From a virus: a DNA stretch of 64,000 nucleotides. A model generated the notes under the pieces. The model made no database searches and was not told the DNA's origin. It saw nothing but the letters and a program-made list of their open reading frames with translations. This document shows, in pieces, positions 36,099-52,303 of the stretch. Location of the stretch: positions 1 to 64,000 of IMG/VR virus record IMGVR_UViG_3300042868_005676; one strand, given 5' to 3'. The translations under genes were made by a program, and so were the position numbers. Numbering within the stretch: position 1 is the stretch's first letter; every line of letters starts with the position of its first letter.

Positions 36099-36378
36099 AG
36101 GAGACAAAGAATGGTACAAGAGTATGTGGTCAACACGACAGAATCATCAGTGCGAAGAGTGTGGGACTCATCTTCCACATTTCTCACCGATGTTCGTGTC
36201 GCATATAATTACGAAAGGAAGTTATCCGAGTTTGAGACAACATCCCGAAAATTGGATGTTATACTGTATGCAATGTCATCAGAAGTGGGAGTTTGGGAAG
36301 AGGACGGAGATGAAGACATATGCGAGGGCGATGGAGATTACTGATAAGTTAAAAAGAGAATATCATGAATCACGGTAG
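36091..36378 (+). CDS. HNH / NinG-like zinc-binding protein
   Basis: The 95-residue protein has CEECG, then SHIITKGSYPSLRQHPENWM, then CMQCHQ. This is an HNH-like treble-clef with four zinc-binding cysteines and histidine in the order typical of NinG/Rap-type recombination nucleases. It lies between YqaJ nuclease and the methyltransferase, overlapping both. It may cut branched DNA or target host DNA. Confidence 0.7.
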   Translation: MAKGDKEWYKSMWSTRQNHQCEECGTHLPHFSPMFVSHIITKGSYPSLRQHPENWMLYCMQCHQKWEFGKRTEMKTYARAMEITDKLKREYHESR

Positions 36379-37300
36379 TTTATTTAGTGGCATTGGAGGA
36401 TTTGACTTGGCAGCCGAGTGGATGGGTTGGGAAAACAAGTTCCATTGCGATATTAATCCGTTTAGTAGAAAATTATGTAGTTTTTATTGGCCTGAGGCCG
36501 AATCATATGACAACATCAAGACAACAGACTTTAGAAAATGGAGAGGAACAATTGATGTCCTCTCAGGGGGATTTCCATGCCAGCCCTTTAGTACCGCTGG
36601 AAAAAGATTGGGAAAAGAAGATGACCGCCATCTTTGGCCCTATATGCTCCAAGCAATCAAAGACATCAGACCAAGATATGTCGTGGGGGAGAATGTTCGT
36701 GGACTCCTTAGTTGGTCGGACGGATTGGTTCTCGAAGAGGTGTATGCTGACTTGGAAGGTGAGGGATACGAAATCCAAACGTTTGTACTTCCAGCTGTCG
36801 GCATCAACGCTCCACACAAAAGAGACAGGGTCTGGATTATTGCTAAAGACACCAGCAGCGATGGACGGGTACAGCGAGAATCTGAGCAAGAAGGAACAAG
36901 TATTCGGGAATTCGGGAACACTGGCTCAAGAAGTAGCAACGGGGTTCATATACAAGAGGGGTCTACTGCCGACACCGAACAGTTACGATTGGAACACGGC
37001 AGCAAAACCAGAGACGTATTTGGCTCGGTCTCAGAGACACAAGGACAAGAACGTAAATCTTCAAATGAGTCTAAGACAGATGACTATGTTTATACCGAAC
37101 AAGGTGGACCATCCGAAGCTTGGGACTGCTTCCCAATTAAATCCCCACTTTGTAGCGGAGATGATGGGCTTCCCCTTGAATTGGACGGACTTACCTTTCC
37201 TAAGTGGAGAAAAGAAAGTATAATGGGATATGGCAATGCCATTGTTCCTCAAATCGCATATCGTATATTTGAAACTATAAATGAACTCAAAAATAAATAA
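36365..37300 (+). CDS. C5 cytosine DNA methyltransferase
   Basis: The 311-residue protein has the ordered motifs of Dcm-type enzymes. Motif I is SLFSGIGGFDLA; motif IV is GGFPCQPFSTAG with the catalytic Cys. Motif VI is GENV, motif VIII is HKRDRVWIIA and motif X is GYGNAIVPQIAYRIF. The region between motifs VIII and X (about residues 162-245) is hydrophilic and low complexity, poor for a target-recognition domain. That same DNA encodes the best-looking part of a second frame (36387-37223). It probably protects phage DNA from host restriction. It overlaps the HNH gene and the next gene slightly. Confidence 0.85.
   Translation: MNHGSLFSGIGGFDLAAEWMGWENKFHCDINPFSRKLCSFYWPEAESYDNIKTTDFRKWRGTIDVLSGGFPCQPFSTAGKRLGKEDDRHLWPYMLQAIKDIRPRYVVGENVRGLLSWSDGLVLEEVYADLEGEGYEIQTFVLPAVGINAPHKRDRVWIIAKDTSSDGRVQRESEQEGTSIREFGNTGSRSSNGVHIQEGSTADTEQLRLEHGSKTRDVFGSVSETQGQERKSSNESKTDDYVYTEQGGPSEAWDCFPIKSPLCSGDDGLPLELDGLTFPKWRKESIMGYGNAIVPQIAYRIFETINELKNK
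36387..37223 (+). CDS. Overprinted frame inside the methyltransferase gene
   Basis: A second frame (+1 relative to the methyltransferase) stays open for 278 codons inside the methyltransferase gene. Its C-terminal two-thirds resemble a phage protein family I remember from other Bacteroidota phages. The pattern is LTWKVRDTKSKRLYFQLSAST, then LLPTP-type repeats (KTPAAMDG, LLPTPNSYDW), then SQLNPHFVAEMMGFPLNW. The N-terminal third looks like mere shadow, so the real start may be internal or the product may depend on frameshifting. Both frames appear constrained where they overlap. No start signal was identified and expression is not shown. Confidence 0.45.
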   Translation: MALEDLTWQPSGWVGKTSSIAILIRLVENYVVFIGLRPNHMTTSRQQTLENGEEQLMSSQGDFHASPLVPLEKDWEKKMTAIFGPICSKQSKTSDQDMSWGRMFVDSLVGRTDWFSKRCMLTWKVRDTKSKRLYFQLSASTLHTKETGSGLLLKTPAAMDGYSENLSKKEQVFGNSGTLAQEVATGFIYKRGLLPTPNSYDWNTAAKPETYLARSQRHKDKNVNLQMSLRQMTMFIPNKVDHPKLGTASQLNPHFVAEMMGFPLNWTDLPFLSGEKKV

Positions 37301-39746: not shown

Positions 39747-40403
39747 ATGACAAAAAAATTAAACATATTAATTGCTTGTGAGTATTCGGGAGCAGTAAGA
39801 CAAGCATTCAGAAAATTAGGTCATAACGCAATTTCTTGCGACCTATTAGAAGCCGAAGACAATTCACCTTATCATCACCAAGGTAATGTATTCGACATAA
39901 TCGACAAAAATCCTTTAAACGGAGAAAAATGGGATTTAATGATTGCCCATCCACCATGTACGGATCTTGCAGTAAGTGGTAGCAGATGGTTTCCCGAAAA
40001 GATTGCAGACGGCAGACAAGAAAGAGCACTTCAATTTGTTCGTGACCTCATGAACGCACCAATTGAACATATTCTGATTGAGAATCCAATTTCGGTTATC
40101 TCCAGTAAGATTAAAAAACCCGATCAGATTATACAGCCTTGGCAGTTTGGCGATCCATTTCAAAAATCAACTTGTTTGTGGCTTAAAAACCTTCCTTTGT
40201 TAACCCACACTAAAATTGTAGACAAAGGAGAATTTAAAGAATGGATCGATAAAAAGACCGGGAAAACTAAACGCCAAGCAACATGGTATTATGAAGCTTT
40301 TAAACGAGGCAAAGAAAACAGATGGAAAGATAGATCTCGCACCTTTCAAGGAATTGCAGATGCCATTGCAGACCAATACAGCAAGTACTTAACAGAAAAG
40401 TAA
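39747..40403 (+). CDS. DNA cytosine methyltransferase-like protein
   Basis: The 218-residue protein has NILIACEYSGAVRQAFRKLG as a SAM-binding start, then AHPPCTDLAVSGSRWF with the PPC-type motif, then ENPIS and IIQPWQFGDPFQKSTCLWL. This is a compact phage family often annotated as DNA cytosine methyltransferase. The canonical target-recognition domain is absent and activity is not certain. It is one of three such proteins here, each of a different subfamily. Confidence 0.7.
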   Translation: MTKKLNILIACEYSGAVRQAFRKLGHNAISCDLLEAEDNSPYHHQGNVFDIIDKNPLNGEKWDLMIAHPPCTDLAVSGSRWFPEKIADGRQERALQFVRDLMNAPIEHILIENPISVISSKIKKPDQIIQPWQFGDPFQKSTCLWLKNLPLLTHTKIVDKGEFKEWIDKKTGKTKRQATWYYEAFKRGKENRWKDRSRTFQGIADAIADQYSKYLTEK

Positions 40404-43238: not shown

Positions 43239-43255
43239 TACGGAGGTAACAAATG
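43239..43255 (+). promoter_or_regulatory. Strong Shine-Dalgarno site, unusual for this genome
   Basis: ATACGGAGGTAACAAATG precedes the methyltransferase-like gene. The same 21 bases (ATACGGAGGTAAC-AAATGAAAA) recur at 47559-47579 before a small lipoprotein-like gene, and AAAGGTAACAAATGAAAAC precedes the gene at 47711. Most other genes here have only A-rich leaders. Confidence 0.65.
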
Positions 43256-43876
43256 AAAACATTAGAATTATTCGCTGGTAGCCGTTCAATCGGTAAGGTG
43301 TGTAATGAGTTAGGGCACAAGGTGTTCTCCTCAGATTGGGAGCAATTTGACGGCATAGACTATGCTGTAGACATTAACAAGTTTGATACTTCTCAAGTAC
43401 CATTCATTCCGGATGTTATATGGGCATCTCCTCCTTGTACTACATTCTCTGTTGCTTCTATAGGTAAGCATTGGGATATGAATCGGAGACCCAAAACTGA
43501 ATCTGCTCTTATGGGTTTGCAAATCCTTAAGAAAACTATTTCAATTATTGAATTCTACATGAAGTACAATCCAAATCTTATTTGGTACATCGAGAATCCT
43601 CGTGGTATGATGAGGAAGGTAAATGTATGGGACAGCATTCAGCATATACGTCAAACCGTGACCTATTGTCAGTACGGAGATACACGCATGAAACCTACAG
43701 ATATTTGGACAAATAACTTTGCTTGGAAACCTCGTATGGCTTGTAAGAATGGAGACCCTTGCCATATCTCTGCTCCTCGTGGTAGCAGTACTGGTACTCA
43801 AGGCTTGAAAGGATCTTATATTCGGTCTCAGATTCCTTATGAGTTATGTTTGGAAATAGTTAAGAGTTGTTTATGA
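43253..43876 (+). CDS. DNA cytosine methyltransferase-like protein
   Basis: The 207-residue protein begins KTLELFAGSRSIGKVCNELG (SAM-binding motif I). It has WASPPCTTFSVASIGKHW (motif IV with PPC) and WYIENPRGMMRK (motif VI, ENP). It lacks an obvious target-recognition domain and differs from the two other methyltransferase-like proteins. It is a compact phage subfamily often annotated as cytosine methyltransferase, and the specificity is unknown. It is preceded by a canonical Shine-Dalgarno site. Confidence 0.7.
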   Translation: MKTLELFAGSRSIGKVCNELGHKVFSSDWEQFDGIDYAVDINKFDTSQVPFIPDVIWASPPCTTFSVASIGKHWDMNRRPKTESALMGLQILKKTISIIEFYMKYNPNLIWYIENPRGMMRKVNVWDSIQHIRQTVTYCQYGDTRMKPTDIWTNNFAWKPRMACKNGDPCHISAPRGSSTGTQGLKGSYIRSQIPYELCLEIVKSCL

Positions 43877-44540: not shown

Positions 44541-44823
44541 ATATCAAATCGAAGTACCCAGCGAATTTTATAAAAGATACGTCTCTAAGTTTGAGAACGA
44601 GAAAAATGCGACTGATTACTTAGAGTTGAGTTTTGATACCATCGCCCGATCTCATAGAACACTACTAAGAAAACATAAACACAAAGAATTAGAAACAAAG
44701 ATAGTAGACATTCACATACATGAATTTTTATGTGAGATTTTTGAACAATACTGCACATTAAAAAATATTACTCCGAGACATATTGCAGTTAAAATAATGA
44801 ACAAAACAATTATAAAGAAATGA
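44527..44823 (+). CDS. Hypothetical protein upstream of the serine recombinase
   Basis: The 98-residue basic, helical protein is His-rich in the middle (IVDIHIHEF). It overlaps the preceding gene by 14 nt and the recombinase by 4 nt. It is not recognised. Tight coupling with the recombinase suggests a partner or accessory factor, by position only. Confidence 0.5.
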   Translation: MSTRKYQIEVPSEFYKRYVSKFENEKNATDYLELSFDTIARSHRTLLRKHKHKELETKIVDIHIHEFLCEIFEQYCTLKNITPRHIAVKIMNKTIIKK

Positions 44824-45512
44824 AGGCTGTAGGTTATATAAGAGTATCGACAGATGCCCAAGCAGACAAGGGTGCATCTTTAGAGAATCAAGTAGCTCGT
44901 ATTGAAGAATACGCACTGAAGAAAGGTTTTATTCTGGAAAATATTTTCGAAGATGCCGGTTATAGTGGAAAAAATACGAAGAGACCTGGGTTTCAAGATA
45001 TGTTCAACAGAGTTAGAAAGGGTGGTATCACTGCTGTGATAGTTTGGCATAGCACTCGTTTCGCCCGTAATCTGAAGGATAATATTGTACACCTATACGA
45101 ATTAGAAAAACTAAAGGTTAAGTTCTATTCTGTGGAAGAACCAGAGATGAGTGGTACAAGTGGTAAAGCAATGCGTAATCTGATGGCAGTATTTGCTGAG
45201 TACCAATCCGATCTTACCGGAGACCAGGTAAGAAGTGTAAAAGGTAATTTAAAAAGAAATAAGAAGGTGTACTCTGGCTTTGCTCCCTTGGGATATAAAC
45301 ACGATAATGGGGACTTAGTTGAGACAGCAGAGATGGAGATTGTAAAAGAAATATTTGATCTGAGGCACAACGGATACTCTTATAACAAAATAGCAAAACA
45401 ATTAAATAATAAAAACTTAAAAGGAAACAAAGGAGGGAAATTTTATCCCATAACAATTTATAAAGTAATTAACAATAAAATATATGAAACGCAAGGATAT
45501 AGTATTAACTAA
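44820..45512 (+). CDS. Serine recombinase (resolvase/invertase type)
   Basis: The 230-residue protein begins MKAVGYIRVSTDAQ, with the catalytic serine at residue 10 of a resolvase-type N-terminal domain. It continues with DAGYSGKNTKRPGFQDM, WHSTRFARN and FAEYQSDL, all typical of the family. A short recombinase-type C-terminal domain follows (FAPLGYKHDNG, then IAKQLNNKN). It lacks the long zinc-ribbon and coiled-coil parts of large phage integrases. It may invert or resolve DNA segments, for instance fibre modules, or act in copy resolution. No crossover site was found. Confidence 0.8.
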   Translation: MKAVGYIRVSTDAQADKGASLENQVARIEEYALKKGFILENIFEDAGYSGKNTKRPGFQDMFNRVRKGGITAVIVWHSTRFARNLKDNIVHLYELEKLKVKFYSVEEPEMSGTSGKAMRNLMAVFAEYQSDLTGDQVRSVKGNLKRNKKVYSGFAPLGYKHDNGDLVETAEMEIVKEIFDLRHNGYSYNKIAKQLNNKNLKGNKGGKFYPITIYKVINNKIYETQGYSIN

Positions 45513-49850: not shown

Positions 49851-50010
49851 TTTATTTAAGTCCGGTCAAAAAGATAAGAAGTTTATCTTCAGAGGCACAG
49901 AGATTGATGTTATTTCAAAAGGATGGAAACAATTGGGAAACCTCTTTTACATGGAGTTAATGACTTCAGAAGGAGACATGGTAGTTACTAATTATACGTA
50001 TAAAAAATGA
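49813..50010 (+). CDS. Hypothetical protein between helicase and polymerase
   Basis: I choose ATG at 49813 (MVKEFNLSPY), giving 65 residues and a 38-nt overlap with the helicase end. The product is basic and beta-rich and not recognised. It overlaps the polymerase start by 4 nt, so it is coupled to it. Confidence 0.5.
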   Translation: MVKEFNLSPYFYDLFKSGQKDKKFIFRGTEIDVISKGWKQLGNLFYMELMTSEGDMVVTNYTYKK

Positions 50011-51938
50011 GAAAAGTTTATGATATCGAGACGTTCCCTAATTTCTTTTCCTACACAGATGTAGATTGTGATAGTAATGAGGTGAATGTATTTGTGATTA
50101 GCACATTTAAAAATCAAACAGCAGAGTTCTTGTTGTATTTAGATTCCCTAGAACAAAATAAAGCAGGGATGATTGGCTTCAATAATATTCATTTTGATTG
50201 GCCGGTGGTTAACTATATCCGAGAGATAGGTAATAAAATTACTCCGGATAGAATTTATGATTTTGTAATGACCATCATTAAATCTGAAAAAAATATTTAT
50301 ACCAAACAAACAATTAAGCAACTTGATTTGTTCTTATTGAATCACTACGATAATAAGGCTCGCTCAGCTTCTTTGAAGTCCTTGGAGGTGTCATTGAATT
50401 GGGAGAACGTTATGGATATGCCTATTGCTGTAGGTAGTATGATTTCTGAGGCCCAAGAGACTATGGTTCTTGAGTATAACTTAAATGATGTTCTATTCAC
50501 TAGAAAGTTTTACGAAGAGTGCGCAGACAAAATAGAACTCCGTAAGAAAATTGGCAACAAGTACAAATTAGATCTGATTAATAAGAGTGATGTTGTCATA
50601 GGAGAAACAATCTTCTTAAAGTATTTAAGTCAAGCAATGAATATGCCAGTGAGCGAACTTAAAAAGATTCGTGGCAAGAGGGCTAAAGTTCCTTTGAAGG
50701 ACATCATATTTGACTATATTAAATTCACAGAGCCTAAATTTCAAAAGTTATTAGGAACTATGTGTGAAACAACGAGTTCTTCTGAGTACTTAGAAGAGTG
50801 GGTTAGCAATTTTAAAACTAATAAGCCCGTGAATGAGTTATATGAACAAGTTGTTAGTCACAATATCGAACTAAAAAAATTAGCACAGAAGAAAAAATCA
50901 TTTGGTTTCTTTGTTAATTATGCCGGGTTAAGAATTGATTATGGTGTTGGTGGTATTCATGGATGTATCAAACCAGGTGTTTATAAGTCTAGCGATAAGT
51001 ATAAAATACTTGACATTGACGTGAAGTCATATTACCCTAACTTATTTATTCAGAATAACTTACATCCTCGCCAAATGGATCAGAATACTTTTATCAGTGT
51101 GTATAAGTTCATTTTTGACGAGAGGGTTAAGGCTCAAAAAGAAAAGGATGATATCACAAGTGCGGCACTTAAATTGGCACTGAACGGTCTCTTTGGTAAA
51201 ACGGGCTCAGATGTAAGTTGCTTCTACGATCCGTTTGTATTCTTTGCCATAACAGTTAATGGACAATTGTTAATCACAATGCTATTGGAAAAATTAATTC
51301 AAGCAGGTGCAGAACTCCTTCAGGTAAATACAGATGGCGTGACCATTATGATTCCTTCTGATCAGGAGCACATATTTAAAAACATTTGTGCTGAGTGGGA
51401 GTCTGTTACTAAATTACAATTAGAATATGCAGATTATGCATCCATGGTCATCCGTGATGTAAATAATTATATTGCTGTTTCTACCAACGGAAAAGTAAAA
51501 GAAAAAGGAATCTTTGAAACTAAGAAGGACTGGCATAAAGACAATTCTTTCATGGTTGTACCAACTGCTGTACGAAATTATTTTGTAGATGGAATACCAA
51601 TTACACAAACATTAGATAATCACAAAAATATTTACGACTTTTGTGGTCGCTATAAAGCAACAAAAGGATGGCACGCAGAGTGGGTATATCTAGAAAACGA
51701 CCAAGAGAAAAGAAAAGGCTTTGGAAAAATATATCGATTCATTCCAGTGAAGAAGGGGGGAGTAAGCCTAAAAATAAATCAAGACGGAAGAGAACATCAA
51801 CTTCTAGACGGCTACCAAACAAAACCATTCAACCAGATCATCAATATAAAAAAGAAAGACTTGGATTTCTCGTACTACGTAGCGGAATGCGAGAAACTGA
51901 TATCGATGATTTCACCTTCGCAGATGACCCTATTATAG
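50007..51938 (+). CDS. Family B DNA polymerase
   Basis: The 643-residue protein starts with an exonuclease-type motif YDIETFPNFFSY. The polymerase core has motif A DIDVKSYYPNLF (~residue 335), motif B KLALNGLFGKTG (~387) and motif C LLQVNTDGVTI (~440), where the second catalytic Asp of YxDTD is replaced in the NTDG form usual in this phage group. It replicates the genome with the primase-helicase and SSB. It is shorter than cellular PolB enzymes but typical of Bacteroidota phages. The next gene overlaps its end by 52 nt. Confidence 0.85.
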   Translation: MRKVYDIETFPNFFSYTDVDCDSNEVNVFVISTFKNQTAEFLLYLDSLEQNKAGMIGFNNIHFDWPVVNYIREIGNKITPDRIYDFVMTIIKSEKNIYTKQTIKQLDLFLLNHYDNKARSASLKSLEVSLNWENVMDMPIAVGSMISEAQETMVLEYNLNDVLFTRKFYEECADKIELRKKIGNKYKLDLINKSDVVIGETIFLKYLSQAMNMPVSELKKIRGKRAKVPLKDIIFDYIKFTEPKFQKLLGTMCETTSSSEYLEEWVSNFKTNKPVNELYEQVVSHNIELKKLAQKKKSFGFFVNYAGLRIDYGVGGIHGCIKPGVYKSSDKYKILDIDVKSYYPNLFIQNNLHPRQMDQNTFISVYKFIFDERVKAQKEKDDITSAALKLALNGLFGKTGSDVSCFYDPFVFFAITVNGQLLITMLLEKLIQAGAELLQVNTDGVTIMIPSDQEHIFKNICAEWESVTKLQLEYADYASMVIRDVNNYIAVSTNGKVKEKGIFETKKDWHKDNSFMVVPTAVRNYFVDGIPITQTLDNHKNIYDFCGRYKATKGWHAEWVYLENDQEKRKGFGKIYRFIPVKKGGVSLKINQDGREHQLLDGYQTKPFNQIINIKKKDLDFSYYVAECEKLISMISPSQMTLL

Positions 51939-52303
51939 ACATTATTGCTCCTCCTAATAGTTTGAATCTAAAGCCTATTATGATGGCACTAAGATGGGAA
52001 ATTATAAATGGTGGCATTACTGTATGTGGAAGGCGTAATCCTCGTTATAAAAATAACGTGATTATTCCTTCCCTTAAGTATAGTTTTCATATAACTTATA
52101 TGGACGGATATATTTTACTAGGGACTAGAGTATCTAGGTGGTGTAAAATACCAGTATCTTTTATAGATGATACTATTCCAGAAGAAACAATTAATTTATT
52201 GGTTGCTTACATTGAATACAAGAAGGCAAACGGAATGAATAGTATTAACGAGTACGTTAACGCATACGAACTTTCTTCCATACTCGTTGATAACGACCAT
52301 TAA
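51887..52303 (+). CDS. Hypothetical protein after DNA polymerase
   Basis: I choose ATG at 51887 (MRETDIDDFT), giving 138 residues. A longer frame from 51668 would overlap the polymerase by 270 nt with a low-complexity basic N-terminus and is unlikely. The product is beta-rich and not recognised. Its end converges with, and overlaps by 47 nt, the end of the terminase gene on the other strand. Confidence 0.55.
   Translation: MRETDIDDFTFADDPIIDIIAPPNSLNLKPIMMALRWEIINGGITVCGRRNPRYKNNVIIPSLKYSFHITYMDGYILLGTRVSRWCKIPVSFIDDTIPEETINLLVAYIEYKKANGMNSINEYVNAYELSSILVDNDH

Follow-up and report, generated by a model that had tools for sequence, protein, structure and literature searches.

Multispecific C5-cytosine DNA methyltransferases (MTases) of Bacillus phages (SPbeta, phi3T, and their relatives) carry several recognition modules of ~38-40 aa between motifs VIII and IX. 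Other C5 MTases, such as M.EcoHK31I and its relative M.EaeI, are natural two-polypeptide enzymes. Lee, Kam and Shaw reportedly found, in 1995, that the gene for the small chain of M.EcoHK31I lies within that for the large chain, in a different frame. The large chain of this enzyme carries motifs I-VIII and X, the small chain has motif IX alone, and the recognition domain is predicted to be in the large subunit (PMC3404938). An out-of-frame protein within a phage methylase gene has also been described as the ShiLan-type hidden HNH endonuclease (PMC11855218). Beyond mentions of M.EcoHK31I and the unrelated ShiLan gene, no earlier description of the overlap family considered here was found in the open-licence literature; a description elsewhere is not excluded.

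Overlapping genes that are both long and ancient are uncommon and difficult to prove. The overlap described here recurs in phages of Bacteroidota, Bacillota, Pseudomonadota, and Actinomycetota, and hundreds of sequences make dual coding testable; the constrained frame visibly switches along the gene. We conclude that the +1 frame inside the MTase gene is almost certainly a true overlapping gene.

The methyltransferase locus

The window (the whole stretch of DNA analysed, 64,000 nucleotides) comes from a virus record of 67.2 kb. The MTase gene sits in a DNA-metabolism block, 3' of the genes for a YqaJ/RecE-like exonuclease and a small HNH protein. Two more methyltransferase-like genes (phrog_757) are at 43253-43876 (+) and 39747-40403 (+); the phrog_757 gene of 207 aa, although it weakly matches PF00145 and contains a PPC motif, falls short of the length of a normal C5 enzyme. 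A 211-aa ORF at 51668-52303 (+), which matches no family, shares ~270 bases, read in another frame, with the 3' end of the DNA polymerase gene (50007-51938), and a serine-recombinase/invertase-like gene (phrog_95 integrase, phrog_125 DNA invertase) is found in the early region at 44820-45512 (+). The two overlapping genes and the main features of frame 0 are as follows.

36365..37300, + strand: frame-0 gene for a C5-cytosine DNA methyltransferase, 311 aa, the putative catalytic subunit (PF00145, phrog_363)
36555..37223, + strand: +1 overlapping gene, 222 aa, from the preferred start ATG 36555 (ORF list, stop avoidance, substitution pattern, phrog_1008 with E 4.7e-21)
36507, + strand: alternative ATG start of the +1 gene, giving 238 aa; the frame is stop-free back to 36369
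36578..36580, + strand: catalytic cysteine codon (PCQ, Cys72), just within the overlap at its 5' side (invariant alignment column C72)
36863..37159, + strand: frame-0 spacer, residues 167-265, predicted disordered (pLDDT <50; codon position 1 most variable)
37232..37252, + strand: frame-0 motif X (GNAIVPQ), 3' of the +1 stop (invariant G290, N291, A292, and P295)

The PF00145 match of the MTase (E 4e-38) is confined to residues 2-208, and the frame-0 family profile aligns to residues 16-176 only of M.HhaI. The chain retains motifs I-VIII and X. The original prediction, made from the letters of the DNA without database searches, saw a low-complexity linker in the MTase frame, and AlphaFold bears this out with a pLDDT of ~26-31 for residues 171-250. 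Judging from such models, frame 0 would have no folded recognition domain. An ORF of 278 codons, 36387-37223 (+), had also been reported in the +1 register of the MTase ORF. It is present, with a GTG start, as are the strings LTWKVRDTKSKRLYFQLSAST, LLPTP, and SQLNPHFVAEMMGFPLNW by which it had been recognized, and these are kept in dozens to hundreds of relatives.

Evidence for dual coding

The +1 run of the window is 284 codons long, and the longest run in the +2 frame of the same gene is merely 39. When synonymous codons were permuted 1000 times within the MTase gene, a procedure that keeps the protein and its codon usage although not the local composition, none of the 1000 shuffles reached that length in the +1 frame (the simulated runs averaged 113 codons and did not exceed 280). 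The best-scoring 80 IMG/VR loci were fetched using the frame-0 protein alone, so that the sampling did not select for the +1 frame, and the homologous +1 ORF is open in all 80 of them. Within-gene synonymous shuffles across the fetched genes almost never left a +1 run of natural length. In 77 genes, no +1 stops are observed at codons 0 to 70 after GGFPCQ, against ~170 expected; at the upstream codons -40 to -5 there are 64, against 56 expected, and the last +1 stop is always at codon -17 or earlier relative to GGFPCQ. The codon block -5 to -1 has none, where 51 were expected. Three further sets, called Bacillota-, Pseudomonadota-, and Bacteroidota-type after the query used (the hosts of the contigs are not known), comprise 75, 77, and 75 genes and have no +1 stops, against 295, 221, and 349 expected, respectively. 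Stop codons in this frame in close relatives would have refuted the proposal of a second gene; within the overlap there are none, either in the 77 genes or in the three clades.

The pattern of substitutions indicates which frame is constrained where. In 13 close relatives, the third frame-0 codon position is the most variable upstream of the linker and downstream of the +1 stop, which is the ordinary pattern. In the linker (codons 162-245), the differences at frame-0 positions 1, 2, and 3 are 0.374, 0.154, and 0.114, and in codons 246-284 they are 0.124, 0.058, and 0.066. Frame-0 position 1 coincides with the wobble position of +1 codons; as it is the most variable one in the linker, the +1 frame is the constrained frame there. 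The same piling up of substitutions at frame-0 position 1 is found in other clades as well. In a larger set, the hand-over of constraint between the frames is visible along the gene, and the ordinary frame-0 pattern is back at motif X. In the motif-IX-like tail, codon differences read in the +1 frame are 550 synonymous versus 278 nonsynonymous, and read in frame 0 they are 124 synonymous versus 607 nonsynonymous; these counts over related pairs are descriptive and do not represent independent events.

In divergent pairs, the ratio of +1 identity to that expected from synonymous shuffling is 0.98 and 1.00 in two non-overlap controls, and 1.09, 1.20, and 1.58 along the N-domain, inside the overlap. 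The first ~30 +1 residues, where the ratio is 1.09, are barely above shuffled identity and are left disordered by AlphaFold; they are little constrained except for being stop-free. The general picture is that constraint comes mainly from frame 0 in the catalytic half of the gene and mainly from the +1 frame in the modules and the tail. True dual coding, as had been proposed, thus has strong support: stops are avoided in four gene sets, the codon positions bear its signature, starts are available inside the gene, and +1 identity is in excess while the controls are clean. The second frame is under selection of its own, over and above what the first imposes, which is what defines an overlapping gene.

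Initiation of the +1 product

The +1 product probably does not begin at GTG 36387. The +1 frame is constrained from ~16 codons before GGFPCQ, which points to ATG 36507 or ATG 36555, and the latter is preceded by a possible ribosome-binding signal.

36540..36547, + strand: Shine-Dalgarno-like GGAGAGGA, 7 nt 5' of ATG 36555, within the W-R-G codons of the MTase (from the sequence)

Across the family the position of the +1 start codon is not fixed, being -20/-19, -9/-8, -6, or -4 relative to GGFPCQ. The -4 ATG is present in 30 of the 77 genes, with a Shine-Dalgarno-like string upstream in 22 of these 30. All 77 genes have a start codon available 3' of the last +1 stop, and in 75 of them an ATG lies no more than 24 codons from GGFPCQ. 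Because the depletion of +1 stops starts just 5' of motif IV, the +1 product is taken to have its own start. Internal initiation is favoured, with neither ATG 36555 nor ATG 36507 proven.

The +1 protein and its modules

The +1 protein consists of an N-domain (helices and a hairpin), one to five shuffled LPTP modules of ~41 aa, and a motif-IX-like tail. In the window these parts are located as follows.

36747..36806, + strand: conserved beta-hairpin LTWKVRDTKSKRLYFQL of the +1 protein, residues 65-84 (best-predicted part of the model, mean pLDDT 88 at residues 71-80; +1 identity 1.58 times shuffled)
36843..36965, + strand: +1 recognition-like module 1 (LKTPAAMDGY...IYKRGL; cluster 0, the commonest shuffled module family)
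36966..37130, + strand: +1 recognition-like module 2 (LPTPNSYDWN...KLGTA; matches module cluster 2)
37131..37199, + strand: +1 motif-IX-like tail SQLNPHFVAEMMGFPLNWTDLPF, a nearly invariant block

The family consensus of the hairpin is LTWKxKxTKSxRLYFQL and that of the tail L(N/S)PxFVxxMMGFPxxW. The modules open with (L/W)PTPxAxD and have a median length of 41 aa (IQR 36-44), with one to five per protein; these statistics come from 154 +1 proteins, mainly Bacteroidota-type, the cutting of modules being less clean in the Pseudomonadota-type set. Module cluster 0 has 35 copies, with 22 different module families as downstream neighbours; some modules are also common to more than one clade. Arranged in this way, the modules behave as cassettes. 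Of the Thr-Leu-type dipeptide that each module of a multispecific phage MTase carries, a loose pattern is present in 43-51% of them.

The tail, L(N/S)P...(M/L)MG(F/Y/L)Pxx(W), directly precedes motif X. Its likeness to motif IX is by eye, profile searches giving no significant match. Pfam and NCBIfam searches of the +1 protein gave no match, and PDB profile searches with the +1 family and with the tail gave nothing meaningful. The AlphaFold model of the +1 protein is poor (pLDDT 61, pTM 0.31), its confident parts being the hairpin and a few helices, and Foldseek with this low-confidence model gave nothing informative. Profile searches thus connect neither the +1 protein nor the tail with motif IX or any known recognition domain.

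Occurrence and annotation

Scans with +1 profiles found at least 80 loci in GTDB genomes (mostly Bacteroidota) and at least 240 further loci in IMG/VR (three scans). The best-scoring 80 loci were taken from each scan, so distant relatives without the overlap are perhaps under-sampled. Essentially all of the 320 loci fetched in this way overlie an MTase gene in the +1 register. Two failed one automatic check: in one (L349), which failed the frame check, the MTase frame itself is split into two pieces, and in the other (L358) the overlap is +1 by profile but not by the motif check. Among the 320 loci (the best 80 per scan), there is no +1 homologue standing alone or fused in frame to an MTase.

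The overlap arrangement is present in Bacteroides phages BS-TP4 and BKO1-TP3 and Porphyromonas phage018a; in Lactobacillus phage Lc-Nu, Lacticaseibacillus phage R23.9, and Paenibacillus phages Bloom and Lily; in coliphage K1H, Pseudomonas phage PMG1, Klebsiella phage Seifer, and Vibrio phage Fayden; and in Xanthomonas phage PhiXhv-28, Stenotrophomonas phage SOVA965, and Mycobacterium phage Rhynn. Prophages of E. coli have it with up to four modules. An in-frame fusion had been expected in actinophages; the single one tested, Rhynn, has the overlap instead, and a scan with Rhynn gave a single match, to its own kind only.

Both frames are annotated in Bloom (56/57), Lily (62 and 63, 'g62 internal gene'), and K1H (ORF28/29). 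In the RefSeq E. coli prophages looked at, the MTase frame alone is annotated, as it is in several of the phage records checked; elsewhere the +1 product is called 'DNA methyltransferase' despite having no catalytic motif. There is, in both respects, a gap in annotation. Phage homologues of the +1 protein are also annotated 'Mte8-like', a label that presumably points to the UniProt entry name of M.EcoHK31I.

Some individual loci differ in their records or in their structure. An E. coli prophage (L458, 2863-4032) has two pseudogene fragments in RefSeq, although its frame 0 is open for 404 aa and its +1 frame, with four modules, for 343 aa. In Mycobacterium phage Ochi17 (L291, 1058-1817, genes 73 and 74), the MTase is annotated as two genes, with a frame change inside the gene, and a +1-type recognition-like ORF (HTPTTNDF...WIEWLMGFPPNW) overlaps the second MTase part. 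In a gut phage contig (MT835926, 1285-2850), the MTase has an apparent intein-like insert right before the catalytic cysteine (between ...ANGIVVHN and CQPFS), and the overlapping +1 frame is retained 3' of the insert.

A probable split enzyme and the alternatives

The two frames probably encode the catalytic and recognition subunits of one split C5 MTase, an inference made in the absence of expression, pairing, or methylation data. The order of the parts along the DNA (motifs I-VIII, modules, motif IX-like tail, motif X) is that of a one-chain C5 MTase with its middle part in the other frame, and the +1 gene fills the interval where frame 0 lacks a recognition domain. The original prediction had suggested that the second frame might supply the missing target-recognition part; this fits the anatomy and is itself an inference. 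That the +1 protein serves as the recognition subunit is likewise inferred, and is held to be no more than probable because the modules and the tail have no sequence or fold match to known recognition domains and there are no experiments.

Dual coding, conservation, an internal start region, modularity, and shuffling are the observed properties that a mechanism has to accommodate. Frame 0 would be translated into the catalytic subunit (SAM binding, the PCQ cysteine, motifs I-VIII and X), in which a disordered spacer would occupy the place that the target-recognition domain has in a one-chain enzyme. The +1 frame, read from its own internal start just 5' of motif IV, would yield a second subunit composed of the N-domain, two LPTP modules of ~41-55 aa, taken as target-recognition modules, and the motif-IX-like tail. 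The two chains are inferred to pair, which would create the equivalent of a one-chain MTase in which the modules determine the DNA targets. Module shuffling among phages could then change the specificity and leave the catalytic half unchanged. Recognition of DNA by the modules, multispecificity, and protection of phage DNA from host restriction are also inferences. A broader proposal is that of a widespread, largely unrecognised class of phage MTases in which exchangeable modules of ~41 aa overlap the catalytic gene, have one DNA target each, and are shuffled for multi-target anti-restriction methylation, with no more than a spacer left of the catalytic frame over the array; this we put forward only tentatively, as a possibility that could well fail. 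Should the modules prove to be recognition units, their shuffled arrays would offer a means of learning which DNA sequence each one reads.

The +1 product might alternatively be real but work apart from the MTase, perhaps in host takeover or against restriction. What is shown is dual coding and not function, and no sequence or fold tie to recognition domains exists, which leaves room for such a role. It is nevertheless unlikely: the +1 protein is never found apart from the MTase in the 320 loci (the best 80 per scan), its gene spans exactly the interval where frame 0 is without a recognition domain, its modules are shuffled as recognition domains are, and M.EcoHK31I provides a precedent for a split enzyme.

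Programmed frameshifting could instead fuse motifs I-VIII of frame 0 and the +1 recognition part into one chain, as the original prediction had allowed. The order of the parts on the DNA does match that of a one-chain enzyme, but +1 stop avoidance begins before motif IV, ~100 codons 5' of the linker. A canonical slippery heptamer is present in just 3 of the 77 genes, and none is shared among them. Moreover, motif X is in frame 0 only, beyond the +1 stop, so that a second shift would be required, and frame 0 is conserved through motif X to its end. A frameshift into the recognition part is therefore very improbable, and we retain the reading of two separately initiated chains.

A passive shadow, in which +1 conservation merely reflects the conserved MTase protein, can be dismissed almost entirely, since, even though every homologue lies within an MTase shadow and the first ~30 +1 residues have an identity ratio of 1.09, +1 conservation peaks where frame 0 is least conserved, zero stops are found against hundreds expected, and the non-overlap controls have no excess identity. 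A lack of homologues outside the shadows of MTase genes had been named in advance as grounds for refutation. Such a lack is literally what was found, but it does not refute the second gene: the +1 frame is conserved exactly where the MTase frame varies freely, which a passive shadow cannot produce.

Comparison with known systems

The +1 protein and its relatives match phrog_1008, which appears to be a collection of such overlapping-frame proteins; the label of this family is 'DNA methyltransferase', whereas the +1 protein has no catalytic motif. The hidden HNH gene of the ShiLan type is a mobile insertion, whereas the +1 protein of the window is a conserved part of the gene, with no insertion. 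The likeness to M.AquI is that the conserved motifs are divided between two polypeptides. In M.AquI, however, the split is in the variable region between two genes, and the recognition part is not overprinted on the catalytic gene.

The system is most likely an M.EcoHK31I-like split MTase, with the reservation that the EcoHK31I sequences were not compared and that the 'Mte8-like' annotation is second-hand. As in M.EcoHK31I, the large chain has motifs I-VIII and X, and the small chain is encoded within the gene of the large chain in another frame, as it reportedly is in that enzyme. Unlike M.EcoHK31I, the system of the window is phage-borne, and no restriction enzyme was noticed among the few neighbouring genes typed; its overlapping chain bears modules (one to five across the family, shuffled), and its large chain is predicted to have no folded recognition domain. 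The modules recall the multispecific MTases of Bacillus phages, where short tandem modules are at the same place, although no sequences were compared and a recognition role is not shown here. The Bacillus phage enzymes have these modules in one chain and one frame, whereas in the window the modules are in the +1 frame and belong to a separate protein.
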